Below, piece after piece: positions 1,744 through 17,983 of a stretch of 23,070 nucleotides of DNA. Position 1 is the first letter of the stretch, and every line of letters starts with the position of its first letter. Location: IMG/VR virus record IMGVR_UViG_3300030061_001008, positions 1 to 23,070 of that record; one strand, written 5' to 3'. The notes below the pieces were generated by a model. The model made no database searches, was not told the origin of the DNA, and worked only from the letters and a program-made list of their open reading frames with translations. Made by a program: the position numbers and the translations under genes. Origin of the DNA: a virus.

Positions 1744-2042
1744 AACAAGAAACGTCTACTTTGCAAAGATTTGTAAAGTTATTAAAAGTATACAGTTTAG
1801 ATTCTGTGGATCTTAAAATAATTGCGTTTGCTCAAGACAAATGGAATAAAGGAGATGTTAGAGTTACTGACTTTTTAATAGAACATGTTATAGCATCTCC
1901 TAGCACATTACATTATCGTGTTACCAAACATCTTGTGGATAAAAAAATATTTAGTATAAGAGTTAACTCCCAAGACAAGAGGGAGAAGTTTGTAGTTAAA
2001 GGTAAAAGGTTTGATGACTTACTGAACAAAGTAGATTTGTAA
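1740..2042 (+). CDS. MarR-like winged-helix protein, 100 aa
   Basis: The product has a compact winged-helix layout: helices around LQRFVKLLKVYSL and VDLKIIAFAQDKW, then VTDFLIEHVIASPSTLHYRVTKHLVDKKIF as the helix-turn-helix and recognition helix. A basic wing (SIRVNSQDKREKFVV) follows. The SPSTLHYRV segment resembles MarR-type recognition helices. It is likely a DNA-binding regulator; whether it acts on this operon or on a host promoter cannot be read from the sequence. ATG 1740 overlaps the stop of the preceding winged-helix gene (ATGA), and its TAA overlaps the polymerase start (TAATG), so it sits directly in front of polA in one transcript. Confidence 0.75.
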   Translation: MKQETSTLQRFVKLLKVYSLDSVDLKIIAFAQDKWNKGDVRVTDFLIEHVIASPSTLHYRVTKHLVDKKIFSIRVNSQDKREKFVVKGKRFDDLLNKVDL

Positions 2043-3868
2043 TGCTTATAACTATAGACTTTGAAACTTACTACGATAAAAAATATTCGTTATCAAAAAT
2101 AACTACTGAGGAATATATACGTAGTAAAGAATTTGAAGTTATTGGTGTTGGTTTAAAAGTTAACGATGAAGAAACAGAATGGTTTTCTGGCACTAGAGAA
2201 GAAACAAAAGAATGGTTGTCTCAATTTAATTGGGATAAAGCTGTTGTACTAGCACACAACATGATGTTTGATGGTGCTATTTTATCTTGGTATTTTAATA
2301 TACACCCTTACAAATTAGCTGACACGTTATGTATGGCACGTGCAATTAATGGAGCATACTCTTCTGTAAGCCTTGCTAATCTTTCAAAAAGATATGGTCT
2401 AGGAGAAAAAGGTACGGAAGTTTTAGATGCGTTAGGTAAACGTAGGTCAGATTTTTCCCCCTCTGAACTAGAACGCTATGGTGGATACTGTCGCAATGAC
2501 GTATATCTCACATATAAATTATTTGAGAAACTCTATAGTGTTTTCCCCCGCAGCGAATTAAAAATTATTGATATAACCCTCAAGATGTTTACAGAACCTA
2601 GATTACAGCTAGATGTTAAGTTATTGGAGGATCACTTAAATAGTACGAAAATAAGGAAGGCGGAGCTATTAAAAGATTCAAACACCTGTAAAGACGTTCT
2701 CATGAGTAACGATAAATTTGCGCAGTTGCTACATAAAAAAGGTGTTGTTCCCCCTAAGAAGATTAGTTTGAGAACAGGCAAGGAGGCATGGGCTTTTGCA
2801 AAGACTGATGAAGAGTTTAAAGAACTAGCTGATCATGAGAATGAAGATATAAAGATATTAGTAGCCGCTAGACTAGGTAACAAAACTACTTTAGAGGAAA
2901 CTAGAACAGAAAGATTTATTGGTATAGCTAGTCGTGGATTGATGCCAGTTCCCCTTAAATACTATGCGGCTCACACAGGCAGATGGGGGGGATCAGATAA
3001 AATAAACCTTCAAAACTTGCCGTCACGAGGTAATGATGCAAACAAGTTAAAGACAGCTATTCAATCACTAGATGGGTACACAATAGTTGATGCCGACTCT
3101 TCTCAGATTGAAGCAAGGGTTCTTGCATGGTTATCAGAACAAGATGATTTAGTAGATGCTTTTGCAAATGGGGAAGATGTTTATAAAATTATGTCGGCTG
3201 GGATATATAACAAATCAGTTGACGAGGTTACAAAAGCTGAGAGATTTGTAGGTAAAACCACTATATTAGGTTGTGGTTATGGTATGGGAGCAGTTAAGTT
3301 TCAGAGCCAATTAAAAACTTTTGGCACAGAGATATCTCTTGAAGAGTCAACACATATTGTTGATGTTTATAGAAGAACTTATAGCAATATATCAAACCTA
3401 TGGAAACAAGGGCATAAATGTTTAGATAGCATGGTAGATATCACAGCTAATACTTTAGGCAAACATGGGGTTTTGGGATTTGACCCCCAACAAAGAGGAT
3501 TCTTATTACCTAATAAATTATGGCAACAGTACACAGGTTTACGTAAGGTGTATGACCCTGATGGCAGACCTCAATATGAATACAAGACTAGAAATAGTTA
3601 TACCAAAATATATGGTGGTAAGTTAATAGAGAACATATGTCAAGCCCTTGCTAGGTGTATAATTGCGGAACAGATGTTGAAGATATCTAAAAGATACAAA
3701 GTAGTGCTTACAGTTCATGATGCTATAGCTTGTGTAGTTCCTGATAGTGACCTTGAAAAAGCAGTTGAATTTGTGCGAGATTGTATGAAATGGCGACCAG
3801 ATTGGTGTCAAGATTTACCATTAGATTGTGAAGTAGGGTTTGGTGGTAACTATGGAGAGATTAAATGA
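2042..3868 (+). CDS. polA: family A DNA polymerase with 3'-5' exonuclease
   Basis: This 608-aa replicative polymerase has proofreading and polymerase domains and no 5'-3' nuclease domain, as is usual in phages. Exonuclease motifs are Exo I with D6 and E8 (IDFET), Exo II with D77 (HNMMFD) and Exo III with Y149 and D153. The polymerase part starts near HTGRW (311-315) and NLQNLP. Motif A is DADSSQIEAR with D352 and E357. Motif B has R401, K405, L409 and Y413-G414. Motif C is VHDAI with H559 and D560. L409 aligns with E. coli Pol I Phe762, and A561 replaces the usual acidic residue after the HD pair. The start codon overlaps the upstream stop (TAATG), and the stop overlaps the next gene (ATGA). 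The enzyme should extend primers made by the primase-helicase encoded at 8876-11755. Confidence 0.97.
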   Translation: MLITIDFETYYDKKYSLSKITTEEYIRSKEFEVIGVGLKVNDEETEWFSGTREETKEWLSQFNWDKAVVLAHNMMFDGAILSWYFNIHPYKLADTLCMARAINGAYSSVSLANLSKRYGLGEKGTEVLDALGKRRSDFSPSELERYGGYCRNDVYLTYKLFEKLYSVFPRSELKIIDITLKMFTEPRLQLDVKLLEDHLNSTKIRKAELLKDSNTCKDVLMSNDKFAQLLHKKGVVPPKKISLRTGKEAWAFAKTDEEFKELADHENEDIKILVAARLGNKTTLEETRTERFIGIASRGLMPVPLKYYAAHTGRWGGSDKINLQNLPSRGNDANKLKTAIQSLDGYTIVDADSSQIEARVLAWLSEQDDLVDAFANGEDVYKIMSAGIYNKSVDEVTKAERFVGKTTILGCGYGMGAVKFQSQLKTFGTEISLEESTHIVDVYRRTYSNISNLWKQGHKCLDSMVDITANTLGKHGVLGFDPQQRGFLLPNKLWQQYTGLRKVYDPDGRPQYEYKTRNSYTKIYGGKLIENICQALARCIIAEQMLKISKRYKVVLTVHDAIACVVPDSDLEKAVEFVRDCMKWRPDWCQDLPLDCEVGFGGNYGEIK

Positions 3869-4530
3869 GTTATACATGGTCTTATTCGGCTATAAATTTA
3901 TTTAAACAATGCCCTAAAAAATACCATCATCTTAAAATACTAAAAGATATTGTAGAACCTCAAAGTGAAGCCCTTTTGTTTGGCAACAGAGTACACCAAG
4001 CGGCTGAATTTTATGTGAAAGAAAACACCCCTTTACCAAAAGAATTAAATTACTTAGAAGAAACTCTTTGTAAGATAAAAGAAATTAAGGGAGACAGACT
4101 GTGTGAATACAGAATGGGTTTAACTAAGGATTTGCAACCATGTGGGTTCTTTGACAAAAAAGTATGGTGGAGAGGTATCGCAGACTTAATAGTATTAGGA
4201 GATAACAAAGCATATCTAATAGACTATAAAACTGGCAAGAGCAGTAGGTATGCTGATGTAAAGCAATTAGAAATACTGTCTTTAGCTATGTTTAAGCATT
4301 TTCCTAAAATAAAAAAGATAAAAGCAGGGTTATTGTTTATAATTACTAAAGAACTTATTAAGAAAAATTTTAGTGCTGGAGAACAAGATAAGTGTTGGGA
4401 GTATTGGGTATCTAATACTAATGACTTAGAAAATACTTTAAACACAGATGTGTGGAACGCTAAACCAAATTTTACTTGTAGAAACTATTGTGCAATATTA
4501 AGTTGTTCGCACAATGGACGAGGGGAATAA
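3865..4530 (+). CDS. Cas4/RecB-type PD-(D/E)XK nuclease with probable Fe-S cluster
   Basis: The 221-aa product carries the RecB/AddB/Cas4-type nuclease motifs in order: SAINLFKQCP with C16, GNRVH with H44, GIADLIV with D107, LIDYKTGK with D120 and K122, and QLE with Q134. A C-terminal cysteine group (C205, C209, C214) together with C16 matches the four-cysteine iron-sulfur arrangement of AddB and Cas4 nucleases, with slightly different spacing (C-x3-C-x4-C). Such phage proteins are single-strand DNA exonucleases used in replication or recombination. There is no CRISPR array nearby, so it is not a CRISPR adaptation protein here. It overlaps polA by four bases, arguing for a joint role at replication ends. 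Confidence 0.92.
   Translation: MSYTWSYSAINLFKQCPKKYHHLKILKDIVEPQSEALLFGNRVHQAAEFYVKENTPLPKELNYLEETLCKIKEIKGDRLCEYRMGLTKDLQPCGFFDKKVWWRGIADLIVLGDNKAYLIDYKTGKSSRYADVKQLEILSLAMFKHFPKIKKIKAGLLFIITKELIKKNFSAGEQDKCWEYWVSNTNDLENTLNTDVWNAKPNFTCRNYCAILSCSHNGRGE
4521..4526 (+). promoter_or_regulatory. ribosome binding site selecting ATG 4532
   Basis: AGGGGA ends five bases before ATG 4532. An in-frame upstream ATG at 4514 would put this site inside the coding region and has no ribosome binding site of its own. The downstream start is therefore preferred. Confidence 0.65.
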
Positions 4531-4888: not shown

Positions 4889-6436
4889 GTGGAGATCATA
4901 AACAACAAGGCTTTATTGCTTAAAGTAAAGCAGCCGGAAAAAATAACTTCTGTCATACCAAAAAGTAAATCAATAACCTCACATCAAGTGGTAGTCAAAT
5001 GGGGTTTAGAAGAAGCCCAAGTATTAAAAAATCTTAAAATAAAAAATGTGCCGTCCCCTATCATGGCTAACTACAAATGGGGAGGTATGTATAAACCATT
5101 TGAACACCAGAAGAAAACATCTTCTTTCCTGACATTACATAGACGTGCGTTTGTATTTAACGAACAAGGCACGGGGAAAACAGGAAGTGTTATATGGGCG
5201 GCTGACTATCTAATGAAATTAGGACTGATAAAAAGAGTTCTAGTTCTATGCCCTTTATCAATAATGCAATCGGCTTGGCAAGCTGATTTATTTAAATTTG
5301 CTATACACAGGTCAGTTGGTATAGCACATAGTTATTCCAAAGATAAAAGAATAGAAATAGTAAATTCAGACGCAGAGTTTGTCATATGCAATTATGATGG
5401 ACTACAAATTATACGAGACGAAGTTAATAAAAACGAATTTGATTTAATCGTAGTTGATGAAGCTAACGCATATAAAACTGTTACTACAAAAAGATGGAAA
5501 GTTTTAAACTCTATTATAAAACCTCATTCATGGATTTGGATGATGACAGGCACACCTGCATCACAGGCACCAACAGATGCTTATGGGTTAGCGAGAATAA
5601 TTAATCCCACTGGCGTACCGAAATATTTTGGATCTTTTAAAGATCTTGTTATGTATAAAGTATCTGAGTTTATTTGGCGGCCAAAAGATAAAGCAGAAGA
5701 TATAGTGCATGAAGCATTACAACCTGCAATTAGGTTTACTAAGGAAGAATGTTTAGATTTACCTGACATGACATATACCACAAGAAATATTCCTTTAACA
5801 AAACAACAGGACAAATACTACGAGCAACTTAGAAAAAATATGTTGGCAGTAGCCGCAGGAGAAGAAATAACAACAGTTAATGCAGCCGCAAACTTAAATA
5901 AGTTATTACAGTTATCTTGCGGTGCAGTATATACAGACAACAAAGAAACAGTTGAATTTGACGTATCAAATAGATTAAAAGTTTTAACTGAAGTAATTGA
6001 CGAAGCAAGCCACAAAGTAATTGTGTTTGCACCTTATCGACATGCAATTAATTTAATAGAAGATTATCTTGTTAAAAACAAATACCACTGTGAAGTAATT
6101 CATGGAGATGTTTCTGTAAATAAAAGAACGGATATATTTAATAAGTTTCAAACAGAAGATAAACCACAAGTATTAATTATCCAACCACAAGCCGCATCTC
6201 ATGGTGTAACTTTACATGCCGCAAATGTTGTTGTGTACTGGTCAGCAGTTATGTCTGTAGAAACGTATTTACAGGCAAACGCAAGAGTTCATAGAGCCGG
6301 ACAAAAGAATCCTTGCACAGTGGTTCACTTACAAGGTTCGGCTGTGGAAAAAAGAATGTACAAGATGCTTCAATCAAAAATCGACATACATAATAAGTTG
6401 ATAGATTTATACAATAATATTTTAGAAGACGCTTGA
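4889..6436 (+). CDS. SNF2-type (superfamily 2) DNA helicase/translocase
   Basis: The start is GTG at 4889, with AGGAG at 4879-4883. The 515-aa product has a Q-motif region (EHQ, Q73), Walker A QGTGKT (93-98), Walker B DEAN (190-193), motif III TGTPAS (220-225) and C-terminal motifs ending QANARVHRAGQ (462-471) with arginine-finger candidates R466 and R469. The H-R-x-G-Q ending and overall length fit minimal phage SNF2-like helicases. The box is DEAN rather than DEAH. It should be a cytoplasmic ATP-driven DNA translocase or helicase working with the PolA and nucleases encoded upstream. Its stop codon TGA (6434-6436) is part of the -35 box of the next promoter. Confidence 0.93.
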   Translation: MEIINNKALLLKVKQPEKITSVIPKSKSITSHQVVVKWGLEEAQVLKNLKIKNVPSPIMANYKWGGMYKPFEHQKKTSSFLTLHRRAFVFNEQGTGKTGSVIWAADYLMKLGLIKRVLVLCPLSIMQSAWQADLFKFAIHRSVGIAHSYSKDKRIEIVNSDAEFVICNYDGLQIIRDEVNKNEFDLIVVDEANAYKTVTTKRWKVLNSIIKPHSWIWMMTGTPASQAPTDAYGLARIINPTGVPKYFGSFKDLVMYKVSEFIWRPKDKAEDIVHEALQPAIRFTKEECLDLPDMTYTTRNIPLTKQQDKYYEQLRKNMLAVAAGEEITTVNAAANLNKLLQLSCGAVYTDNKETVEFDVSNRLKVLTEVIDEASHKVIVFAPYRHAINLIEDYLVKNKYHCEVIHGDVSVNKRTDIFNKFQTEDKPQVLIIQPQAASHGVTLHAANVVVYWSAVMSVETYLQANARVHRAGQKNPCTVVHLQGSAVEKRMYKMLQSKIDIHNKLIDLYNNILEDA

Positions 6437-6497: not shown

Positions 6498-6884
6498 ATG
6501 AAAGTAGATAAATTGGTCAAGGTTTATCTAAAAATAAGGGATAAACGTAAAGAGTTACAAATCGAATACGATAAGAAAGATGAGTATTTGAAAGACACTC
6601 TAAAAGAAGTTGAGACGGCTCTTTTAGACGTATGCAAAGAAACAGGCGCAGATAGTTTACGTACTGAATTTGGCACTGTGTCTAGGAGAGTTTCTAAAAG
6701 ATATTGGACAACGGATTGGAACTCTATGTATGAGTTTGTTAAAGACAACGATCAATTAGACTTGTTAGAAAAACGAATAGCACAAGGCAATATGTCAACT
6801 TATCTTGAAGAAAACCCTGACAAACTACCTCCGGGATTAAACGTAGATAGCAAATATGCAGTAACTGTGCGTAGAAAATCATAA
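6498..6884 (+). CDS. Gp157-like coiled-coil protein
   Basis: This is the first gene after the consensus promoter, with AAGGGGA ending just before the ATG (RBS about 6487-6493). The 128-aa product begins with a charged coiled coil (residues about 5-47). It continues with a conserved-looking block including LRTEFGTV (54-61), a YWTTDW motif (about 69-74), DLLEKR and a C-terminal PGLN...YAVTVRRKS. This layout resembles siphovirus Gp157 and host-nuclease-inhibitor-like proteins common in phage replication modules. Members are usually described as recombination or anti-nuclease accessory proteins, but the exact function is not established. I am fairly sure of the family type and unsure of the function. 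Confidence 0.7.
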   Translation: MKVDKLVKVYLKIRDKRKELQIEYDKKDEYLKDTLKEVETALLDVCKETGADSLRTEFGTVSRRVSKRYWTTDWNSMYEFVKDNDQLDLLEKRIAQGNMSTYLEENPDKLPPGLNVDSKYAVTVRRKS

Positions 6885-7577
6885 ATGAAAAGAATAAGTA
6901 TTCAAAATAACATGTGGCGGTTTCTCTCTGATGGGAGAGAAATTGATCGTGAGGATAAAGCTACATTAAATGTAGTGATTGTAGGTGCGGCTGAACATAT
7001 ATCAAGAATTTATTACACAGGTAAATATGATGAAAATAATTATAGAAAACCTGATTGTTATTCGATTGATGGTGTTAAACCGCATGAGTCCTCTGACAAG
7101 ATTCAAGCAGACACATGTGTCACATGCAGTCAAAATATTAAAGGTTCCGGTGCAGGGAACAGTCGTGCATGTAAGTTTCAACAACGTATTGCTGTAGTTT
7201 TAGAAAGTGATATTGGTGGGCATATCTATCAGTTAAACATACCATCTAAATCTATATTTGGGCAGGGTACAGTAAAGAAATGGCCTTTACAAATATACTG
7301 CAAAAAAATAGCTGAGAATGGCGCTCCCATAACATCAGTTGTAACGGAGATGTGTTTAAACTCAGACGATTATGGCACTCGTATAACTTTTCAACCAGTG
7401 CGTATTTTAGAGGATAAGGAGTTTGATGAAGCATTAAAACAAGCAGATTCTGCATTAGTAAAAAAAGCAATTAACGTATCTTTCAAAACATCTTTTGATG
7501 AATCAGATTTAGATATAACAAATAAAAACAATTTTTCTAACTTGGTGCATGTAATGGGCATGTCATCTGACATTTAA
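6885..7577 (+). CDS. four-cysteine phage replication-module protein
   Basis: The ATG abuts the preceding stop (TAAATG) with no strong ribosome binding site, suggesting coupled translation. The 230-aa product contains C58, C78, C81 and C96 (TCVTC at 77-81, then RACKFQQR), a plausible zinc-binding set. A beta-rich region follows (IAVVL, HIYQLNIPSKSIFG) and then a segment with TEMCLN and ITFQPV. I recall proteins of this type next to phage single-strand-binding candidates in uncultured marine phages, but I cannot name a domain. The position between the Gp157-like and acidic-tail genes, in a replication operon, suggests a single-strand-DNA or nucleoprotein role. This is inference. Confidence 0.7.
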   Translation: MKRISIQNNMWRFLSDGREIDREDKATLNVVIVGAAEHISRIYYTGKYDENNYRKPDCYSIDGVKPHESSDKIQADTCVTCSQNIKGSGAGNSRACKFQQRIAVVLESDIGGHIYQLNIPSKSIFGQGTVKKWPLQIYCKKIAENGAPITSVVTEMCLNSDDYGTRITFQPVRILEDKEFDEALKQADSALVKKAINVSFKTSFDESDLDITNKNNFSNLVHVMGMSSDI

Positions 7578-7592
7578 TAAAAGGAGAACTTT

Positions 7593-8597
7593 ATGTCAAA
7601 CCTATCTTTAACCAACGTCAGCGAGAGTGATCTAAATGCTTTAGCAAAAGCCATGGGTATGAGTGCTGATGCAACTGCAAAAAAACAAGGCAGTACATTG
7701 CCACGATTAAAAATAGACCACAAGGGTGTTGAAGGAACAGCTACTATAAAAGGTAAACAGAATGTACCTTATCAAGTAGTAGAAGCAGGACAATTTTGCC
7801 TAGAGCGTCTTGATACTGATGGCTCAAAAATATATCAAGAAAACCTTTCTATAAGATTATTTAACCAAAGGTTTATGTACAAAAGGTATGTAAGAGATGG
7901 AGAGTCTGGACGTTACGTTAAATCAGTTATGGGTTTAGATTTAAAATCTGATTTACAAGATACAGATGGTGGTGTTAACTGTGGTCGATCTAGTAAGTAC
8001 ATAGAAGACTTTGATAGCTTACCGCAGGAAACAAAAGACTTAATGAAAAGCATTAAGAGAGTTAGAGTGCTTTTTGGGTTGGCAACTTTTAATCAAGCTA
8101 CTAATGAAAAAGGCGAAACAGTATCTGTTGTAGAACCTATTCCTTTTGTATGGGAAGTAGATAATAGAGATGCTTTTAAAACATTGGGTGTTCCTATTAA
8201 TAAAATGGTTACAAAAAATCTTATTCTTCCTCAATGCGAATTGAAACTAAGCACTGAAGAAAAATCAGTTCCTAGTGGGATTAAATTTTACTTGCCTAAA
8301 GTATCTATTGACACTGAGAATTTGTTTGACTTGAGTAAAGAAGATCAGACAACATTTAACGACTTTAACGAGTGGGTAAATTCTTACAACAATTGGGTTC
8401 TTTCTCAATCTTCTAAGAGTTCTGATAGCACAACTGTAGATGTTGATGTTGCAGAAGATGTTGAAGATGTTGAAGTAAAAGAACTTACTAAGCCAGTAAA
8501 AGAACCTAAAAAAGTTAAAACTAAAAAAGAAGAAGCACCTGCTCCCAAAAAAGATTTAGGTAAAATCTTGGACGAGTGGGATGATGACGAGGAGTGA
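7593..8597 (+). CDS. candidate single-strand DNA-binding protein with acidic tail
   Basis: ATG 7593 has a good ribosome binding site AAGGAG just upstream. The 334-aa product starts with a short helix (LNALAKAMGM). A beta-rich central region (about 38-270) follows, including PRLKIDHKG, QFCLERL and RVRVLFGLATF. The end is a disordered region: acidic DV/ED repeats, then a Lys/Pro-rich stretch, and a terminal DEWDDDEE. A flexible linker with an acidic C-terminal tip is the hallmark of phage and bacterial single-strand-binding proteins, where the tip recruits polymerase and helicase. I do not recognise an OB fold by motif, so the assignment rests on the tail and the replication-operon context. It could instead be another replication scaffold. 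Confidence 0.65.
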   Translation: MSNLSLTNVSESDLNALAKAMGMSADATAKKQGSTLPRLKIDHKGVEGTATIKGKQNVPYQVVEAGQFCLERLDTDGSKIYQENLSIRLFNQRFMYKRYVRDGESGRYVKSVMGLDLKSDLQDTDGGVNCGRSSKYIEDFDSLPQETKDLMKSIKRVRVLFGLATFNQATNEKGETVSVVEPIPFVWEVDNRDAFKTLGVPINKMVTKNLILPQCELKLSTEEKSVPSGIKFYLPKVSIDTENLFDLSKEDQTTFNDFNEWVNSYNNWVLSQSSKSSDSTTVDVDVAEDVEDVEVKELTKPVKEPKKVKTKKEEAPAPKKDLGKILDEWDDDEE

Positions 8598-8600
8598 TAT

Positions 8601-8834
8601 ATGTCAAAAGGTTATTCAAAAAACTTTATAGATACAATCGAGGGTGCGGATAAAGGTTTACTAGGTGTCCAATTGGGGTCTATGTGTGTTAAGAACGATA
8701 TACCTGTAACTGATGTTGCTGAGTTCTTAGAAGTATCACGTATGACAGTTTACAATTGGTTTAAAGGATCTACAAAAGTTTGTGAGCCGCATTTACAGAA
8801 AGTAGAAAAATTAGTTAGTAAATTAAAGGACTAA
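8601..8834 (+). CDS. Cro/C1-type helix-turn-helix regulator
   Basis: GAGGAG at 8589-8594 provides a good ribosome binding site six bases before ATG 8601; only three bases separate it from the previous stop. The 77-aa product has a helix-turn-helix at about 35-58 (PVTDVAEFLEVSRMTVYNWFKG), followed by a C-terminal dimerisation-like helix (QKVEKLVSKLK). This is the size and layout of a phage Cro-like DNA-binding protein. It lies last before an intrinsic terminator and could regulate the 6433 promoter or another site. Its operator cannot be identified from this window. Confidence 0.8.
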   Translation: MSKGYSKNFIDTIEGADKGLLGVQLGSMCVKNDIPVTDVAEFLEVSRMTVYNWFKGSTKVCEPHLQKVEKLVSKLKD

Positions 8835-8875: not shown

Positions 8876-11755
8876 ATGTTATCAAAAATGGACTTCTTTT
8901 CTTTCGTTTTACCTTCTACAGGTTCGTATTGTTTTGTATCTTTAAAAGATGCTCCGGGAGCAACGAGAAAAAAATCAAGTCAAAAATTTTGTAATACTTT
9001 AGATGAATTAATAGCGCATACAGATAAATTTTTAGAGACAAAATGGGATGTTTATGTTGCACTTGCGTCTTATGATGATGCAGGACATCGTACAAAAGAA
9101 TGTGCTAAAGAACTTAAAACTTTTTTTATAGACATAGATTGTGGAGAACTAAAACCATACAAAGATAAAAAAGAAGGTTTAACTGCTTTAAAGAAATTTT
9201 GTAAGACTACTCAATTACCAAAGCCAACTCTTATAGTTGATTCAGGAAATGGTCTTCACGTTTATTGGGTTTTAAATAAAACTATAGAATCTTTAAAATG
9301 GATTGCTATGGCAAATGCGTTAAAAGATTTGTGTGAAGAGCATAAGTTTTTAGTAGATGGTGGGGTCACAGCAAACTCTGCTCAAATACTACGTGTACCA
9401 GAAACTTTAAATTTTAAAGACATTGACAACCCAAAACCAGTGGAGGTTATATCTCAAAAAGATAGTATAAATTTAGATTCTATAGAGCATATTTTAAAGG
9501 CAAAGGTATCCATATTTGATGAACTAAAAAGTAAAAACTTTCCTCGTCAATTAGATGCTACTACTTTAGCCCTACAAGCTAATTACAAAAATACGTTTAA
9601 GACAATCTTTTCTAAATCTATGAAAGATAAAGGTTGCGCTCAAATTAAATATGCCTATGAGAATCAAGAAACATTATCTGAACCCTTGTGGAGATCAATT
9701 TTATCAATTGCAGAAAGATGTGAAGACAAAGAAAAAGCCATTAATATTATGTCTAGGGAATACCCTAACTACAATAAAGAAGAAGCACTTAGGAAAGCAT
9801 CTTTAACTAAAGGGCCATATACGTGTAGTTGGTTTAAGAAAGAAAACCCTGAACTGTGTAAAGGTTGTTCATTAAAAGTGACCTCTCCTATAGTAATTGG
9901 TAAAGAAATTATAGAAGCATCTAAAGAAGATAATGTTGTTAGCGCAGTTGAAAGTAGCACTGAAAAGAAAAAAACATATAATATACCAACTTACCCATTT
10001 CCTTTCTACAGGGGTAAAGTAGGTGGTGTATATAGAAAAGCAGATATACCAAAAAACAGTGATGAAGTACCTAAAGACGAATGTATATACCCATATGACT
10101 TTTATGTAGTCAAGAGAATACATGATCCTGAAGAGGGAGAAGTTCTTTTATTAAGATTGCACTTACCAAAAGATGGTGTTAGAGATTTTTTAATGCCTTT
10201 AAGTTCTGCTTTAGCAAAAGATAAATTTTTAAGTGCCGTGTCTTTTCACGGTGTAACGGCTTTAGGAAAAAAACAGGATCTTCTTATGCAATATATAAAT
10301 AAATCGGTAGAATCTTTACAAGCACAAGGTAAAGCAGAAGTAGCAAGAAAGCAGTTTGGTTGGCTAGAGGACGACAGTGCGTTTATATTAGGCGATAAAG
10401 AAATAAAGTCTACCGGAGATATTGAGTATAGTCCTCCTACAATCGTTACTTTACCTTTAGTTCCTATGTTTACCCCAAAGGGAGACTTTCACACTTGGAA
10501 AGATATTATCAATGCTTATGCAGAAGAAAGCAGGGTTAACAGGGCTTTTGCTTTTTTTATGGGATTTGGCGGCCCTTTAATGAAATTTGTTGGTGAGGGT
10601 ATGCTTGATGGGTTTTTATTAAACTTGTTCTCTAAAGATGGAGGAACAGGAAAGTCAACTGTCTTACATACAATAAATAGTATTTACGGAAACCCAAAAT
10701 CCTTAATCTTATCTTACAAAGATACACATAACCACAGGCTACAAAGGTTAGGAACTATGCAAAGTTTAACTCCTACTATTGATGAGTTAACAGACATAAA
10801 ACCTGAAGATATGGGTAGGTTAGTTTATGACATTACATCAGGTAGAGGCAAAAACAGAATGGATTCAAAGGCAAACAAGGAGAGAAAAAACAATACAACT
10901 TGGTCTATACCTGTAGTTACCTCATCTAATAGAAGAATAAAAGATGCTTTATTAACTATTAAGTCTTTTCCTGAACCTGAGTTACTACGTATATTAGAGG
11001 ACAAAGTGGAGCAAGACCCATATGATAACCCTAAGTGGTCTAAAACGCATTTTGGTAGGTTAAATAATAATTACGGACACGCCATAGAGCCATTTGTAAA
11101 ATATTGTGCTATGAATTTACCAGAAGTTATTGCCTTATTAAATAAGGTAAACGAGAAAATAGATAACGCAGCGGAAATAAAAAATACAGAAAGGTTTTGG
11201 TCAGCAGGCACAGCTATAGCGTTAACTGGAGGTATAATAGCTAAAAATTTAGGGCTGCATGACATATCTATAAAGCCTGTATTTGACCATGCGGTTAATT
11301 TAGTTAAAAACAGCAGAAAGAGTAACAAAGACTCTTTAGTAGAATCAGGAGAATCTTTAGGAGGGTTTTTACAGAAGTATTATCACGGAATACTTGTTAT
11401 AAATGGCAAAATAGACAGACGTACAGGTATAGAAATGGGAGCAATAAAAGAACCACGCATGTCTTTAGTTGCTCGTTTTGAGCCTGATACTAAGATATTG
11501 TATGTATCTAATGCGGCATATCAAGAATATTGTGGTAGATTTTTTATAAGTTATGACGACTCGTTGGTGCCTTATAAGAAAAACAAGGCGTTTAAAGGCA
11601 TAAAAAAGAAACGTATGATGGCAGGTACGTTAGCAGGGGCATCTGATGGTGTTCGTTGTTTAGTATTTGATACCAACAGACTAGACTTTTTTAACGAAGA
11701 GGTTTTTGCAAATGCTGATGGTGATGAATTTGCCGATGAAGATACTGTGGACTAA
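8876..11755 (+). CDS. primase-helicase: AEP primase fused to DUF927-type helicase
   Basis: AAAGGA at 8863-8868 supports ATG 8876. The N-terminal third (about 30-200) is an archaeo-eukaryotic-type primase domain: FIDID with D86 and D88, GNGLHVYW with H128, D161 as probable third acidic residue, and RVPETLNFK (R173). A small cysteine group (C317, C328, C331) follows and may bind zinc. The C-terminal half is DUF927-like, with PFYRGKVGGVY, Walker A GGTGKST (589-595), a Walker B-type IDE (D636, E637) and a sensor-like VTSSN. At 959 aa it is a complete primase-helicase that should both unwind the fork and prime for PolA. It lies beyond an intrinsic terminator with no promoter visible in the short gap. 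Confidence 0.9.
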   Translation: MLSKMDFFSFVLPSTGSYCFVSLKDAPGATRKKSSQKFCNTLDELIAHTDKFLETKWDVYVALASYDDAGHRTKECAKELKTFFIDIDCGELKPYKDKKEGLTALKKFCKTTQLPKPTLIVDSGNGLHVYWVLNKTIESLKWIAMANALKDLCEEHKFLVDGGVTANSAQILRVPETLNFKDIDNPKPVEVISQKDSINLDSIEHILKAKVSIFDELKSKNFPRQLDATTLALQANYKNTFKTIFSKSMKDKGCAQIKYAYENQETLSEPLWRSILSIAERCEDKEKAINIMSREYPNYNKEEALRKASLTKGPYTCSWFKKENPELCKGCSLKVTSPIVIGKEIIEASKEDNVVSAVESSTEKKKTYNIPTYPFPFYRGKVGGVYRKADIPKNSDEVPKDECIYPYDFYVVKRIHDPEEGEVLLLRLHLPKDGVRDFLMPLSSALAKDKFLSAVSFHGVTALGKKQDLLMQYINKSVESLQAQGKAEVARKQFGWLEDDSAFILGDKEIKSTGDIEYSPPTIVTLPLVPMFTPKGDFHTWKDIINAYAEESRVNRAFAFFMGFGGPLMKFVGEGMLDGFLLNLFSKDGGTGKSTVLHTINSIYGNPKSLILSYKDTHNHRLQRLGTMQSLTPTIDELTDIKPEDMGRLVYDITSGRGKNRMDSKANKERKNNTTWSIPVVTSSNRRIKDALLTIKSFPEPELLRILEDKVEQDPYDNPKWSKTHFGRLNNNYGHAIEPFVKYCAMNLPEVIALLNKVNEKIDNAAEIKNTERFWSAGTAIALTGGIIAKNLGLHDISIKPVFDHAVNLVKNSRKSNKDSLVESGESLGGFLQKYYHGILVINGKIDRRTGIEMGAIKEPRMSLVARFEPDTKILYVSNAAYQEYCGRFFISYDDSLVPYKKNKAFKGIKKKRMMAGTLAGASDGVRCLVFDTNRLDFFNEEVFANADGDEFADEDTVD

Positions 11756-11984: not shown

Positions 11985-12024
11985 CCCTCAATATCTTACT
12001 CCACAAGTATTGGGGGATTTTTTT
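11985..12024 (+). terminator. strong rightward intrinsic terminator at the convergence of the two gene blocks
   Basis: CCCTCAATA (11985-11993) pairs with TATTGGGGG (12008-12016), nine pairs with one U-G. A short inner CTT/AAG extension follows, and then A plus seven T (12018-12024). The T run overlaps the last codon region of the leftward polyvalent gene. No matching T run exists in the leftward sense, so it works only on the rightward transcripts. The remaining gap, 11913-11984, shows no other convincing feature. Confidence 0.85.
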
Positions 12025-15000
12025 ATCTTTCTAATATGTTTTTCTTAATCCACGGAATATTAATAATTGATATTAAATCGTTATCTAACATATCTAAATT
12101 ATTTCTTCTATCTCTTTTTTCTTCTGGACTAAGATCTTTGTCATTGTCTATAATTTTTTTAGCTGAACGAGTTGTTGATAACGCATTTTGTACTGCTCTA
12201 ACTGATTGACCTAAAGCGTAAAGTTTGAGGTTATTATTTTTTTCTAAATACTCAAGAAGTTTTTCAGGCTCCATACGATTTATTAAAATGTTAACAGTAT
12301 CAGTAACCCTATCTATTTCATCTCTAAACTCATAGTATTCTGACTTTTGTCCTGACGGTATCTTGTCATAGGAAAATGTTTTTACAATTGGGTATTCATA
12401 AAAATTGTAGTCTCTTCTACCCATAACTTTAGAACTTATAACATTTGTAGCATCTACAAACATCCCCCCTGCAATACCTCCCATACCTCTAATAAAGTAT
12501 TCAACTTGTATAGGACTTAAAGGAGCTGGAGAATAAGCTCCAATCATTTTTGCTAACTCTGAAGTAGAAGTAGTAAATTGTTCTCTAAGGGCTACATTTT
12601 CTAAACCTCTTGGAACTATAGGAGCATCTCTAAATAACGAGTAATTCATAGCCATTTCTACAGGTGTTTTAAGACCTTGTGGCGCTAAACCCGGCCCACT
12701 AAATGCGTCTATAAAAGCTCTTGATATGTTTCGCCTAAAAGTTTGTGCATCTTCAGGATTATTAGTGCCTTCTTTAATTATATAATTTATTGTTCTTTCA
12801 GGAATAACTTTAAACAAAAACCCTATTTCAGGGGCTACAGGTAATTTACGACCAGTGCCGGGTATAATAAAATTTTTATCTTTTATGTATTCATTTTGCC
12901 CCTCATACTCTTCATTACCACTAACTAAAAAAGTATAAATAGAAGCTAAAGTTGCTATCTTAAAACCATTTGCTAAAAATTGCCTTTGTGCTTTTGCTTT
13001 TTCTAAATTACTAATACCTGTACCAGACATAGCCCTAAAATAAACACCCATACCTTGTATGTAAGCATTTAAAAAAGGCACAGTTTGTCTTAATATACCT
13101 ACGTATTTATTTGCACCTTGACGTTTAAAGTTAATTATTTCTTGCGCTTTATACCTTGCAAGAAGAACGTCCCCATCGGGAAATCTTTCTGATTTAGTTT
13201 CAGCTAAAGTTTGTTGAAATACAGCTTTTCTTAATTGTGCATCAGAGGCTATAGAAAAATTCTCAAAGAAAGAAATAAATTTGCTAGTATTGCTTTTTTG
13301 TTTTAACCCAAATTCTTCTTGTATTTCTTCTTGCGCCCTACCTTGCATTAAATCATAAGAACCCACAATACCATAACTTCTAAGTTGGTCTACAGTTGGG
13401 TCTGTATTTAATCTTACAGACGCATAACTTAAAGGATTTAAAACTCTACTTGCTACTCTAAAGGGGTTATCAGTGCCAGATAACAACATAGCACGACCAC
13501 TATCTTGAATTAATTGGCTAATTGCAAACTGAGGTGTAGCTGTAACTGCTTTTCTTAAAAAGTTAGAAGCACTTGTAAGAACATCTATTATAGGGCCACT
13601 CGCAACTTCTAGTCCTTTAAACGCATATACATCAAGAATATCTTCATATTCGTAAAATTCTTGCTCTCCATTTCTATAAATAGTAACGACTCTGTCTTTA
13701 TCTGCGTTTGACATTTTGTCGTATTTACCCTTACTAATTTTGTCAGCGCCTAATTTATTTTTTACAAACGCATCTGTAATAGTTACAGCCGCATGATTAC
13801 GTACAGTGCTATTTACCATCCAAAAAGATAATCCAACCATATTATTTATTACATCATCTATTTCAGCGTCTTTACTTCCTTTTAATTTACGTAAATCTTT
13901 AGTTTGTAATTCTTTTATAAATGATTTTGGATCATTAAATTTTGATGTTTCTATATCTTTTATTCTATTCCACGGTATATATCCTGCAGCGGCTTTCCAA
14001 TCGTCAGCTTTACTTTTTGATATACGTCCGGCCTGCACCATAGCATCAATAAGTCCATTTTTATATCTAGTAAATTCCTCAAATATTTCTTTTATTTCTT
14101 CATGACGAGCTAATATTTTTTTTGCATCTGCTACAGCTTCTTTACTTGGTAAAAGCTCATCAGGGATTATATCTTTTCCTCGTAGATCATCAGCTCTAAT
14201 AGCAACTAATACATCATTTACAATTCTTTGTCCTTTTTTAGCATCGCCTATTTTTAAACCAAAATCAGCTATTTTTTGTACTACACCAAATAAAGAATCC
14301 TTTCCTTCAGTAGCTTGCCAACCGACATCTTTGTTAAAAGTTAATTTACCTAACTTCATAACTGCAGTAGCTAATGTATCTGCATGTTCTGCCATAACCA
14401 TAAATATGTCAGGACGAATATTACCTAGTGAATCTCTTATTAAATTGTTGTATTCTTTTTGTAATTTTTGTTCTACAGAAGAACCTTTGTACATTGCAGC
14501 TACTTTAAACTTTAAAAACTGTCTTTTAACTCCATCAGTGTAAAATTCAAGGTTAAACAAATTTGAAGTAATTGTTTCTAATAATCCCGGTTTTGGGCCA
14601 GTTGAATTTGATATATTATGATTTAAAAAACCGTCAAAAAGTACATCATCATAAGTGCTATTAGCATTACTAAACATAATTCTTTCAGCTCTACTAGGTA
14701 TGTATTCACTCTCTGCTCTTTTTGTCCTACCTGTAAATACGAAGTCGGCTGATTTAGCAACAAGATCTGCTACAGTTACATCTCTAAAAAAGGAAGGAGC
14801 AACGGCATCTTCTAACCCCAATCTTCTTTTAAACAAAGTTTTTTCACCTGTTTTTATTTTAAATATAGGTATTCCACTATTATTTAAAACTTTTGTTATT
14901 TTTCTAATTGCATCTTCTAAAAAGTTTTTTAACGCTTGTAAAAATCCTTGTGTTCCTCCTGCAGGTTTTCTTCCTACAAAACCACTTTCTACTGCTTCTG

Positions 15001-17983
15001 CTATCATTTCTTCAACAGCTCCATTTTGGGTGATGCCGTCATTTTTCATTCTAACTCTAATAGCGTCTTTAATTTGAGGATCAGCATTGGCGTAAATGCT
15101 TTGCATAGTGCTTGCGTATTTAGCGCCAAGAATGGCACGTAATCCATAATGTCCTACAGACTCATGCAATATAACTTTAACTGCATCTGATTTGTTTAAT
15201 ACATTAGGAGCAACTATATAAACAATTTCAGTTTTAGAATCAAATATACCTTTTATTTTAGAAAAAGAATCAAGCTCTATATCTAGAATTTTTTTTAATC
15301 TACTTAACTCTTTAGGTAGTCCATCTACAACTTTTATTTTAGGTTTGTTTTTCCAACCTGCAGTAGCTTCTTCTACGTAACCTTCAACAGTTTTTACCAT
15401 ATCAGATTTACTTATGTCTTCTACTACTGCTTTTTTACCTCTAAGTTTTGCTTTTGCTTTTTCTCCAATGAATAAAGGTTTTTCTATTGCTTTAAAAAAT
15501 TTTTCAGTTTCTGCTTTGTCTAATTTGTCATTCTTTAAATATTCATTTTTAAAGTTATCTCTTATTATTTCAGCTTCTTTTATTTGTTCTTTTATTAATT
15601 TAATTTCAGGTTTATCTTTTGTGTATGATAAATCTTTTTTTAAATCTTCTACTCTTTCGTATAAATTTTTATAGTTAAGTGCATCTTGTGGTGTAAGCCC
15701 ACTTTTTGTTTCAAACCCATTTAATTCTTTTACTATATTGTTTATATATAATTGTTGTGGCTCATTTAACTGACTAATGGTTGTATTGATTTCTTTTAAT
15801 CGTTTTTTGTCTTCTACAGATAATTTTTCATCTTTTGGTTTAGAGTTTAAAAAATATAAATCACCTGCTATAGCTCTTAGCTTAAAAATATTTGCTTTTT
15901 GTTCTTTAACTTTTTTAAGTCCTTTTTTATCATCTATGGTAAACCCATATTTATCTTCTTCTTTTTTTTGTTTCTTTTCAATTTCTTTTGTGTCTTGATA
16001 TGGCTTATATTTATTTAAAACTCCACTAGGTGTGTAGATACTATTTTCTCCAGCAACAAATGTATCGTCTATTTCTATGTTTTCTCCATCTCTTCTAACT
16101 ACTGCATCTGTTTTAAAATCTTCGTCAGCTAATCTTCTTGCACGTGCAAATATAGCTTCTACTATAGAAGGTCTATTATAAAAAGGTTTTTCTTCTGGTT
16201 TTACTTCTTCAGGAGTTATATCTCCTATTGTGTCTTTATAATATTCTTTTAATAAAATACTTTTTTGCTCTGGTGTAGCATTTTCTATTGTTTCGCTTAA
16301 AAGTCTTCTTTGTTCAGGAGTAAGAACTACTCCTGATTTTCCTGCTGTTTTAGCAATATTAAGAGCTTCTTCAAACGTGTTTGGATCAAACAAGTTTATT
16401 TGTTCTTCAGGTTTTACTTCTTCAGGTTTTACTTCTTCAGGTTTTACTACAGGTTCTACTACAGGTTCTACTACAGGTTCTACTTGAGATTCTAATTCAT
16501 TTTTATACGCTGTTACTTTTTCTATTGTTGATTGTTTTGCATTTGTTTTTTGTAGATAATTTTCTAATGCGTTTACAACTTCTTGTTTTTGTTTAGGGTC
16601 AGCTAAATCTTTACCATCAATTTCTTTTTTTAAATTACCAACATACGCTACACCTATTTTTTTAAAAACAGATTTATCAACCACTGTTGATTCTGGTGTT
16701 AATTCTGGTTTTGGTGTTGGTTCAGCAAACAAATCTACTTGATCTGCAGATGGAGTGTCAGGTGGCACAAATCCTTTTTTTACTTTATCTTTAGGTAGTA
16801 TTTTTTTCTTTTTTGCAATTTTTCCTTTTAAATTTTTTATATACTCTTCTACTTTTTGTATATCTCTTTCTATTTTTCCTTGTTCTTGTGGAGAAGCTCT
16901 TTTTTGTTTTTCTAGTAAAGTATTTTTATTGTTCTCAAACTTAACTAAATCTTGTTCAGCTTCTGTTATATAAACTCTAGCTTCTTTTTGTTCAGTAGTT
17001 TCTTGAGGATCAAGTCGTTGTTGCGCCTGCTCCATAAAAGATGCGTCTTCTTTTTCTTGTTCTGTAGGTTCAGGAATACCTGACAACGGAAGTTGGTCTT
17101 CATCTGCTATAGGGCTTGCAGGTTTATCTTCTGTTACTTTTTTAGGATCTATTTTTCTAGCTCTTGGTACGGCTAAGTCAAACAACCCTTGTGCTAACGC
17201 ACCGACTGCGCCACCATATGCGGCATCTTCTCCTATACCTTCTACAAGTTCTTGTTCAGGTTTGTACCCACTTTTTGCAATTGCATTTTGTGCGTATCCT
17301 GCAGCAGCTTCTGTAGCTGCTTCTACACCACCTGTCTCTAATGCCCTACCAACTCTCTGCACACCACTTTCAATAACACTTGTATCTAATTTTTTTAATA
17401 TCCTAGCAGGGGCAAAAAGTTCTAATAATCCTACAGGTATACCTTTTGCTGTTGCTGTTGCTCTTTGATCTTCTGTAGCTTCGGCCTCTTCTGCACGTAA
17501 CCTAGCTTCTCCTGCACCCGCACCCATAGCTAAAGATCTTACTGCAACTTTACCAACCACACCAAAAGGAGCAAACGCTAAAAATGGAATAAAAGAACCA
17601 AATGCTTCGCCAAACTTCCTACCAATAGTATCTTCATATCCGGGAGTTGGCGTGAATTTATCTCTTACACTTTGAGTAACATCTCCTACAGACTCACGTA
17701 TAGTTTGTTCTGTTTCATCATCAAAAGCTGCACCAATACCTGTAGCCGCAGTTTCAACTAACCCTGCCGCACCGGGAATAATACCTTTAAAAAACTCTCC
17801 TGTTTGACCAGTTATGTCACTAAAGTCAAGCTCGTCATCTGTTGCTTTTAGAGCTGTTTTTAATTGGTCATAATTTAAACCTTCGGCTTGTAAATACGAA
17901 TCTATCGTGCCTTCAGGCACATCTGATTTAGCTATTCTTACTAAATTTCTAGCTATTCTTTCATAGTTTTGTCTTGGGGTCAT
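12023..17983 (-). CDS. 1986-aa large polyvalent virion protein with LPD38-like region and metallopeptidase-like motif
   Basis: The ATG at 17983 overlaps the upstream stop (ATGA), with GAGGA as ribosome binding site. Visible regions in order are: a hydrophobic Gly/Ala-rich stretch (about 128-160); low-complexity Glu/Lys/Pro linkers and coiled coils (about 280-880) including tandem VEPV and KPEEV repeats; a metallopeptidase-like motif HESVGH (940-945), with E991/E992/E996 as candidate third ligand; and an LPD38-like region around NFLRKAVTATPQF (from 1474). A membrane-like segment near FKIATLASIYTFL and a charged helical tail follow. Such giant phage proteins are packaged in or ejected with the virion and carry effector domains. 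Q-x-x-L-F motifs at 415-419 and 528-532 lie in the linkers. It is the last gene of the late leftward block. Confidence 0.85.
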   Translation of the reverse strand: MTPRQNYERIARNLVRIAKSDVPEGTIDSYLQAEGLNYDQLKTALKATDDELDFSDITGQTGEFFKGIIPGAAGLVETAATGIGAAFDDETEQTIRESVGDVTQSVRDKFTPTPGYEDTIGRKFGEAFGSFIPFLAFAPFGVVGKVAVRSLAMGAGAGEARLRAEEAEATEDQRATATAKGIPVGLLELFAPARILKKLDTSVIESGVQRVGRALETGGVEAATEAAAGYAQNAIAKSGYKPEQELVEGIGEDAAYGGAVGALAQGLFDLAVPRARKIDPKKVTEDKPASPIADEDQLPLSGIPEPTEQEKEDASFMEQAQQRLDPQETTEQKEARVYITEAEQDLVKFENNKNTLLEKQKRASPQEQGKIERDIQKVEEYIKNLKGKIAKKKKILPKDKVKKGFVPPDTPSADQVDLFAEPTPKPELTPESTVVDKSVFKKIGVAYVGNLKKEIDGKDLADPKQKQEVVNALENYLQKTNAKQSTIEKVTAYKNELESQVEPVVEPVVEPVVKPEEVKPEEVKPEEQINLFDPNTFEEALNIAKTAGKSGVVLTPEQRRLLSETIENATPEQKSILLKEYYKDTIGDITPEEVKPEEKPFYNRPSIVEAIFARARRLADEDFKTDAVVRRDGENIEIDDTFVAGENSIYTPSGVLNKYKPYQDTKEIEKKQKKEEDKYGFTIDDKKGLKKVKEQKANIFKLRAIAGDLYFLNSKPKDEKLSVEDKKRLKEINTTISQLNEPQQLYINNIVKELNGFETKSGLTPQDALNYKNLYERVEDLKKDLSYTKDKPEIKLIKEQIKEAEIIRDNFKNEYLKNDKLDKAETEKFFKAIEKPLFIGEKAKAKLRGKKAVVEDISKSDMVKTVEGYVEEATAGWKNKPKIKVVDGLPKELSRLKKILDIELDSFSKIKGIFDSKTEIVYIVAPNVLNKSDAVKVILHESVGHYGLRAILGAKYASTMQSIYANADPQIKDAIRVRMKNDGITQNGAVEEMIAEAVESGFVGRKPAGGTQGFLQALKNFLEDAIRKITKVLNNSGIPIFKIKTGEKTLFKRRLGLEDAVAPSFFRDVTVADLVAKSADFVFTGRTKRAESEYIPSRAERIMFSNANSTYDDVLFDGFLNHNISNSTGPKPGLLETITSNLFNLEFYTDGVKRQFLKFKVAAMYKGSSVEQKLQKEYNNLIRDSLGNIRPDIFMVMAEHADTLATAVMKLGKLTFNKDVGWQATEGKDSLFGVVQKIADFGLKIGDAKKGQRIVNDVLVAIRADDLRGKDIIPDELLPSKEAVADAKKILARHEEIKEIFEEFTRYKNGLIDAMVQAGRISKSKADDWKAAAGYIPWNRIKDIETSKFNDPKSFIKELQTKDLRKLKGSKDAEIDDVINNMVGLSFWMVNSTVRNHAAVTITDAFVKNKLGADKISKGKYDKMSNADKDRVVTIYRNGEQEFYEYEDILDVYAFKGLEVASGPIIDVLTSASNFLRKAVTATPQFAISQLIQDSGRAMLLSGTDNPFRVASRVLNPLSYASVRLNTDPTVDQLRSYGIVGSYDLMQGRAQEEIQEEFGLKQKSNTSKFISFFENFSIASDAQLRKAVFQQTLAETKSERFPDGDVLLARYKAQEIINFKRQGANKYVGILRQTVPFLNAYIQGMGVYFRAMSGTGISNLEKAKAQRQFLANGFKIATLASIYTFLVSGNEEYEGQNEYIKDKNFIIPGTGRKLPVAPEIGFLFKVIPERTINYIIKEGTNNPEDAQTFRRNISRAFIDAFSGPGLAPQGLKTPVEMAMNYSLFRDAPIVPRGLENVALREQFTTSTSELAKMIGAYSPAPLSPIQVEYFIRGMGGIAGGMFVDATNVISSKVMGRRDYNFYEYPIVKTFSYDKIPSGQKSEYYEFRDEIDRVTDTVNILINRMEPEKLLEYLEKNNNLKLYALGQSVRAVQNALSTTRSAKKIIDNDKDLSPEEKRDRRNNLDMLDNDLISIINIPWIKKNILER
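16403..16483 (-). repeat. two adjacent in-frame tandem repeats (3 x 15 bp and 3 x 12 bp)
   Basis: On the plus strand TTCTTCAGGTTTTAC occurs three times (16403-16447), directly followed by TACAGGTTCTAC three times (16448-16483). On the coding minus strand they give the VEPV and KPEEV units of the polyvalent protein. Both units are multiples of three, so copy-number changes would keep the frame. A flexible spacer between folded parts is the simplest role. Confidence 0.9.

Follow-up and report, generated by a model that had tools for sequence, protein, structure and literature searches.

Gene content of the locus

The stretch of DNA analysed here in its entirety, hereafter the window, is a record of 23,070 bases from a marine phage, a 23 kb fragment whose left half is filled by a replication module read from left to right. 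In order, this module encodes a VRR-type nuclease (so named from annotation in phage records and a home-made profile), DNA polymerase A (2042-3868), a PD-(D/E)XK exonuclease (3865-4530), a SNF2-type helicase (4889-6436), a 128-aa protein (6498-6884), the two proteins considered here, B (6885-7577) and A (7593-8597), a 77-aa HTH protein (8601-8834) directly 3' of the tail-bearing gene, and a 959-aa DUF927 primase/helicase (8876-11755), all on the plus strand. The polymerase, exonuclease and both helicases were recognized in Pfam and PHROGs scans, the DUF927 protein also in our survey of related loci; the HTH protein was assigned from its ORF, a Pfam scan and the same survey. The N-terminal part of the DUF927 protein weakly matches AEP/TOTE and polymerase/primase families, and the protein is possibly a PrimPol-helicase fusion. 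The 128-aa protein, the constant companion of B, has weak Gam/Gp157-like matches below cut-off; its family goes by the PHROG name 'minor head protein', which is out of place among replication genes and looks like a misannotation. Near 12 kb of the window both the coding strand and the GC skew flip, and the minus strand at 12023-17983 encodes a 1986-aa protein with VEPVVEPVVKPEEVKPEE repeats.

The initial annotation had read B and A as proteins of 230 and 334 residues, the latter ending in DEWDDDEE, and both ORFs are present as described. The ATG of B follows immediately on the stop of the upstream gene, and an aaaggag at 7580-7586, ahead of A, is a plausible ribosome site. We class A as a gp32-like single-stranded DNA-binding protein (SSB) candidate on the basis of its ORF, its relatives (HMO-2011 gp13 and CRP-1 gp20) and its predicted fold. 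It begins with a putative N-terminal arm (residues 12-26, 7626-7670), which carries the family motif NFAAMAxAMGMxxD in conserved columns and is modelled at pLDDT 47-61. There follow a predicted folded core of OB type (about residues 34-278, 7692-8426), an acidic stretch VDVDVAEDVEDVEV (residues 282-295, 8436-8477), a charged linker that alignment and model indicate to be disordered (residues 296-318, 8478-8546) and an acidic tail of the module type, KKDLGKILDEWDDDEE (residues 319-334, 8547-8594), which is recognized by a tail profile and by DNA alignment with the 3' end of the B gene of a related locus, L100. The stretch VDVDVAEDVEDVEV aligns with the native tail of HMO-2011-type relatives (e.g. 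VVEEFVDVEV) and may be a remnant of it. The sole invariant cysteine in the family alignment of A is C130.

From its ORF, alignment and model, B is a four-cysteine OB-type protein, which in the window and its closest relatives (the window clade) has neither N-terminal arm nor acidic tail. The four cysteines pointed out earlier are confirmed at C58 (7056-7058), C78 (7116-7118), C81 (7125-7127) and C96 (7170-7172), spanning 7056-7172 on the plus strand; they are invariant in 44/44 aligned members, the window included, and presumably form a metal site, perhaps for zinc. B has two further cysteines. Its C-terminal peptide KNNFSNLVHVMGMSSDI (residues 214-230, 7524-7574) resembles the N-terminal arm of A in a search with an arm profile.

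Predicted folds and relatives of A and B

Neither protein matches a Pfam family above cut-off, and B matches only PHROGs of unknown function. A FliD_C match of A (E 0.0026, below cut-off, residues 224-289 in its C-terminal part) was set aside as coiled-coil noise, and PDB sequence profiles gave nothing convincing for either protein. A had initially been described as lacking an obvious OB-fold signature; structure prediction argues otherwise, with a core that is predicted to be OB-type and closest to gp32. The model of A (pLDDT 80.5, pTM 0.72), built from an alignment of 59 rows, has good confidence through most of residues 34-278 and low confidence in the N-terminal arm and the last 50 residues. 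Its best structural alignment is with the T4 gp32 core (1gpc, Z 8.3 over 179 residues at 4.2 A). Next are RB69 gp32 (Z 8.1, and 7.0 when fused to a polymerase), the recombination directionality factor (RDF) of phiC31 (7.6) and gp32-Dda (6.8). By the alignment tool's own note, models that match nothing clearly also tend to have a top Z of 7 to 8, a caveat that applies to B as well. The five gp32 and RDF rows at Z 6.8-8.3 are followed by a drop to 3.7, and the lower rows are mostly OB folds, many of them SSBs, with RPA and BRCA2 also present. In Foldseek searches of the PDB neither model has a match at E 0.001 or better; against viral models, A has 36 matches, nearly all unnamed, of which one is called 'single-stranded DNA-binding protein' and another 'DNA binding protein-like'. 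On the predicted model alone A thus has a gp32-type OB core (Foldseek alone is not significant), and it looks like a highly diverged gp32-like fold.

The model of B is better than that of A (pLDDT 89.2, pTM 0.80). It aligns best with the phiC31 RDF (Z 8.8), then with gp32 entries (6.8, 6.4 and 5.4) and BRCA2 (6.2), the next being 4.4. The RDF, which also scores high for A, is in chain 9teh_I, which we take to be gp3; gp3 relatives are annotated as RDF. The gene of phiC31 gp3 (locus L225, 99-833) lies upstream of primase and polymerase genes. Unlike the fold, the sequence gives no kinship of B with gp3 in profile comparison: 5/44 B relatives show weak matches below cut-off to the Gp3-like family PF18897 (best E 0.0027), the genome of L106 reaches 18.4 bits against a cut-off of 23.6, and only phiC31 itself is above cut-off among 20 records. 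Profile comparison likewise gives no kinship of A with gp3, links neither protein to gp32 and does not join the two cores to each other; it shows nothing beyond the tail. What we say about kinship among A, B, gp32 and gp3 therefore concerns the fold alone, as seen in predicted models.

The likeness to T4/RB69 gp32 extends from the predicted OB-type core of A, whose best solved-structure match it is, to the plan of N-terminal arm, core and acidic C-terminal tail, and perhaps to the invariant cysteine set of B beside the zinc site of gp32. In T4 gp32, zinc is bound in the core, the N-domain touches the core of the neighbouring molecule and the C-domain interacts with other proteins (PMC12893549). 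A has the acidic C-terminal tail of this plan (DEWDDDEE) and window-clade B has none. The locus differs from gp32 in having no detectable sequence kinship to it, in the one invariant cysteine of A, and in encoding two cores in tandem, one of them without arm and tail.

Relatives of A are found in seven records of named phages (CRP-1, HMO-2011 in two records, CRP-345, CRP-2, CRP-603 and CRP-207), all annotated as hypothetical, and, by alignment scan, in at least 583 of the best 600 candidates in IMG/VR. HMO-2011 gp13 and CRP-1 gp20 are true relatives, with 41-43% identity over about 265 residues (E 2e-61 and 4e-66, respectively), and are encoded directly behind polymerase A; they differ from A of the window in their acidic tail and in lying in a primase/DnaB-type module. 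The HMO-type relative at L172 (2036-2962) ends in KNIPF, which recalls the tip of bacterial SSB. Among the collected loci, which are fragments and partly redundant or overlapping, A occurs without B, in HMO-2011-type surroundings, in 135/154 A loci. Polymerase A ends at most 150 nt upstream of A in 120/128 A-only loci that show at least 250 nt upstream, and in the remaining 8/128 the gap between the end of a polymerase match and A is 174 to 464 nt. The SNF2, DUF927 primase, HTH and 128-aa genes of the window module are present in 0/135 A-only loci, within the DNA examined. Adjoining polymerase A without these genes, A belongs to another replisome, from which it was probably imported.

B was found in 89 collected loci, in 70 of which A is absent. 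Its 128-aa companion is present in 88/89, at most 300 nt upstream in 83/89, and the one remaining locus is cut at its edge. Seventeen phage records hold a B relative, mostly Pseudomonas (KPP25 type), Rhizobium and Acinetobacter phages. KPP25 ORF069, EVB41_075 of Rhizobium phage RHph_TM3_14A and 400 of Acinetobacter phage Effie lie, like B, beside a companion of the 128-aa type and replication genes; they are longer than B, have other C-terminal ends, and A was not found with them. Several distant B loci among L138-L163 have the order 128-aa gene, B, polymerase, exonuclease, nuclease, helicase, and in several of them the C-terminal stretch of B is basic, not acidic; more distant B relatives in general have other ends, acidic or basic. 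The model of B has no match in the stretches of HMO-2011 and CRP-1 examined. B is the older gene of the replication module. The pair of A and B is confined to one clade, in which A was apparently added to an older module that had B only.

The initial annotation noted that no conventional SSB is visible, and this holds as far as we searched. The census covered 24 records, among them the window (a 23 kb fragment), relatives of 30 kb and 47 kb and the complete HMO-2011 and CRP-1 genomes, the fragments setting a limit to it. PF00436 matches 0/24 records. The gp2.5-like SSB family phrog_112 matches 5/24, which are the five state-3 records of the set (see below), and 0/10 records with A; neither family matches in the complete HMO-2011 and CRP-1 genomes. 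PF08804 (gp32) matches only the T4 control among 20 records. In the Pfam scan neither PF00436 nor PF08804 gave a row for A or B, and neither protein matches the T7 gp2.5-type SSB families (phrog_112, PF21265, PF10991) up to E 1 in Pfam and PHROGs.

Three states of the slot and the acidic tail

The slot is found in three states. In state 1, B stands alone as a protein of 281-325 aa; its N-terminal arm is of the xLSxLAKALAG type, its tail is, for example, KKDLAKILAEWDDE (L100), and the next gene encodes the HTH protein or the primase. In state 2, the window clade (13 contigs and the window; a 14th contig, L093, ends before A), B begins with the first core strand, has neither arm nor tail, and is followed by A with the tail KKDLGKILDEWDDDEE or a variant ending in DEWDDDEE. 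In state 3, B again consists of the core or little more (in L097 the N-terminus is longer). Where the contig permits, a protein of about 245 aa follows, whose tail is, for example, AAVIDDWDD. The three state-3 proteins tested match phrog_112 (E 2.2e-20, 2.6e-17 and 3.4e-14), and that of L119 is just above the Pfam cut-offs of the T7 and Enc34 SSB families. These SSBs of the T7 gp2.5/Enc34 ORF6 type thus occupy the same slot as A in a sister clade and have a similar tail; they are of a different sequence family from A, and the relative in CRP-822 ends in DLDDALPF. An SSB gene of the gp2.5-like kind has been reported for some CRP-822-type phages (PMC12629253).

We built a tail profile from 14 state-1 B tails and searched 6388 distinct C-termini of six-frame ORFs of at least 60 aa from the collected loci. 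Outside B, the profile matches window-clade A at E 1.7e-8 (A of L009, with the same last residues as the window), 2e-7 and 2.8e-4, and state-3 gp2.5-like proteins at E 4e-4 to 3.6e-3, with L131 at 0.18; next is an HMO-type A (L031, DLADVVEEFVDVE) at E 0.25, and then noise. The A tails of L094 (E 7.7) and L090-L092 (unlisted) miss this long profile, though they end in DEWDDDEE; with a 16-column profile they are at E 0.21-0.26 and state-3 tails at 0.018 to 0.64, noise beginning at about 0.14. The acidic tip to which attention had been drawn at the outset is not a chance feature, 0/1000 shuffles of the window C-terminus scoring as high. In six C-termini shuffled 1000 times each, no shuffle reaches the real score for five of them with either profile, the exceptions being L091 with the long profile (26/1000) and L098 with the short one (5/1000). 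At E 0.01 the tail is found in 44 partly redundant loci, on B in 21, on A in 13 and on the state-3 gp2.5-like protein in 10; no locus has two. HMO-2011-type relatives of A elsewhere have other tails. A profile of the linker only gives no significant match outside B (best non-B E 0.52), and the tail of T4 gp32, at E 20, is no match for the tail profile either. At the DNA level, the last 75 nt of the B gene of L100 align with the window's A better than 1000/1000 base shuffles, a plain control under which similar peptides alone could explain part of the match.

In a tree of the SNF2 helicase, which holds those of 47 hand-chosen loci that are long enough (46), state 2 forms a single clade (100/99), and the locus closest to it (98/94) is L100, of state 1. 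State 3 makes up a clade of its own (100/99), and a further branch (100/99) sets the distant state-4 loci apart as a group. A primase tree made by a quick method from 37 of the 47 loci agrees in recovering state 2 with L100 (100) and state 3 (98), and places the L101/L102/L109 group and L126 differently, with a long-branch warning. A single origin of both tail transfers was rejected: the tree joining states 2 and 3 is worse by 39 log units (p-AU 0.0013, for a group named after the tree had been seen). With the root assumed on the state-4 side, the simplest history is one in which the tail was captured twice, independently, starting from a state-1 ancestor.

A second profile was made from 69 distinct N-terminal arms of A from outside the window clade and run against the same 6388 C-termini. 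It matches only the C-termini of window-clade B (6 distinct, E 0.003-0.014; the next is at E 3), and 0/1000 shuffles reach the real score in each of three B C-termini tested. Against N-termini, with the rows of A itself excluded, nothing is below E 1.3; the arms of state-1 B match neither those of A (best E 2.2) nor the T4 gp32 arm (unlisted at E 100). The B peptide and the A arm can also be aligned at the DNA level, possibly by chance.

Roles of A and B and the origin of the pair

A is very probably the replication SSB of the phage: its predicted gp32-like fold, its place behind polymerase A, the exchange of the slot with a gp2.5-like SSB and its tail all point to this, and it would bind ssDNA. 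The initial proposal of a single-strand-binding candidate stands in respect of tail, predicted fold, position and co-occurrence, and is corrected in its wording on the OB fold. The gp32-like OB core of A would coat ssDNA, the N-terminal arm would link neighbouring molecules, and the disordered acidic tail may dock on the other replication proteins of the module. We regard it as improbable that A serves in recombination or annealing, or as an accessory factor of the polymerase, instead of coating ssDNA in bulk. Its adjacency to polymerase A (120/128 loci) and an exonuclease gene near by in both kinds of module would suit such a role, but a gp2.5-like SSB with a similar tail fills the same slot in the sister clade, and HMO-2011 and CRP-1 have no SSB of the families searched; moreover gp2.5 and gp32 have such roles too, so that the readings overlap. 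There is a real, if lesser, chance that A is the only working SSB and B a replication-linked regulator, for example an RDF-like or initiation factor, and a mere neighbour. The phiC31 RDF as best fold match of the B model and the sub-threshold PF18897 matches speak for it. Against it, stand-alone B has arm, core and acidic tail, PF00436, phrog_112 and PF08804 found no SSB other than the B candidate in state-1 records, and no integrase is among the eight window proteins scanned with Pfam and PHROGs.

The tail itself we consider a transferred label of the module, probably captured from B by the incoming SSB genes. That unrelated SSBs evolved the same docking motif for the same partner, with no fragment moved, is less likely; the motif is short, the linker alone is not significant and the native HMO-type tail of L031 is vaguely similar, but the 3' ends of the L100 B gene and the window's A match at the DNA level (against plain base shuffles), and in clades whose A or gp2.5-like protein has the tail, B has none.

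In the capture history that we favour, ancestral B would have been an older SSB-like protein, a four-cysteine OB core with its own arm and tail on the three-part plan of T4 gp32. The A gene would have arrived from an HMO-2011-type phage and landed at the junction of core and tail in B, giving A the tail and reducing B to a bare core. This tail would then be an address for the replisome and not for one SSB fold, the sister clade having done likewise with a T7 gp2.5-like SSB. Bare B may by now be an accessory, which perhaps joins the A filament by means of the A-like peptide at its C-terminus.

The initial annotation took the two proteins for a distinct pair. They do co-occur, being consecutive in 13/13 relative contigs that have both and in the window, as the neighbourhood survey found; the pairing is not obligate, given the many loci with A or B alone. 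The two may yet form a distinct pair through the arm-like peptide at the C-terminus of B. Docking of this peptide on A, as a B-A contact or in a mixed filament, is a tentative proposal drawn from sequence likeness. The full scheme is speculative to a similar degree: an SSB tail that is a portable module label, with the core replaced independently by at least two SSB families (HMO-2011-type A and T7 gp2.5-type), and a window-clade B that lost arm and tail, gained the arm motif of A at its other end and forms a two-component filament in which B cores plug into A.

An SSB with an acidic tail and a gp32-like fold are known; the two-core arrangement and the relay of the tail are new. In the open-access literature on SSB tails and displacement, natural exchange of tails between SSBs was not found, a weak absence. 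HMO-2011-type phages have been called dominant and broadly distributed in the ocean (PMC9038755), and a term search finds no SSB mentioned in the main text of that diversity paper. The open-access literature on HMO-2011, of partial coverage and thus a weak absence, names no SSB for HMO-2011-type phages. Family A, with hundreds of relatives, is an SSB candidate for these phages. The tail relay resembles a natural tail-swap experiment, in which docking would depend on a short tail that can be transferred, whatever the fold of the SSB. Finally, B widens the fold class of gp32 and the phiC31 RDF and suggests a route from an SSB-like protein to a recombination directionality factor: the phiC31 RDF may descend from a phage SSB-like protein.
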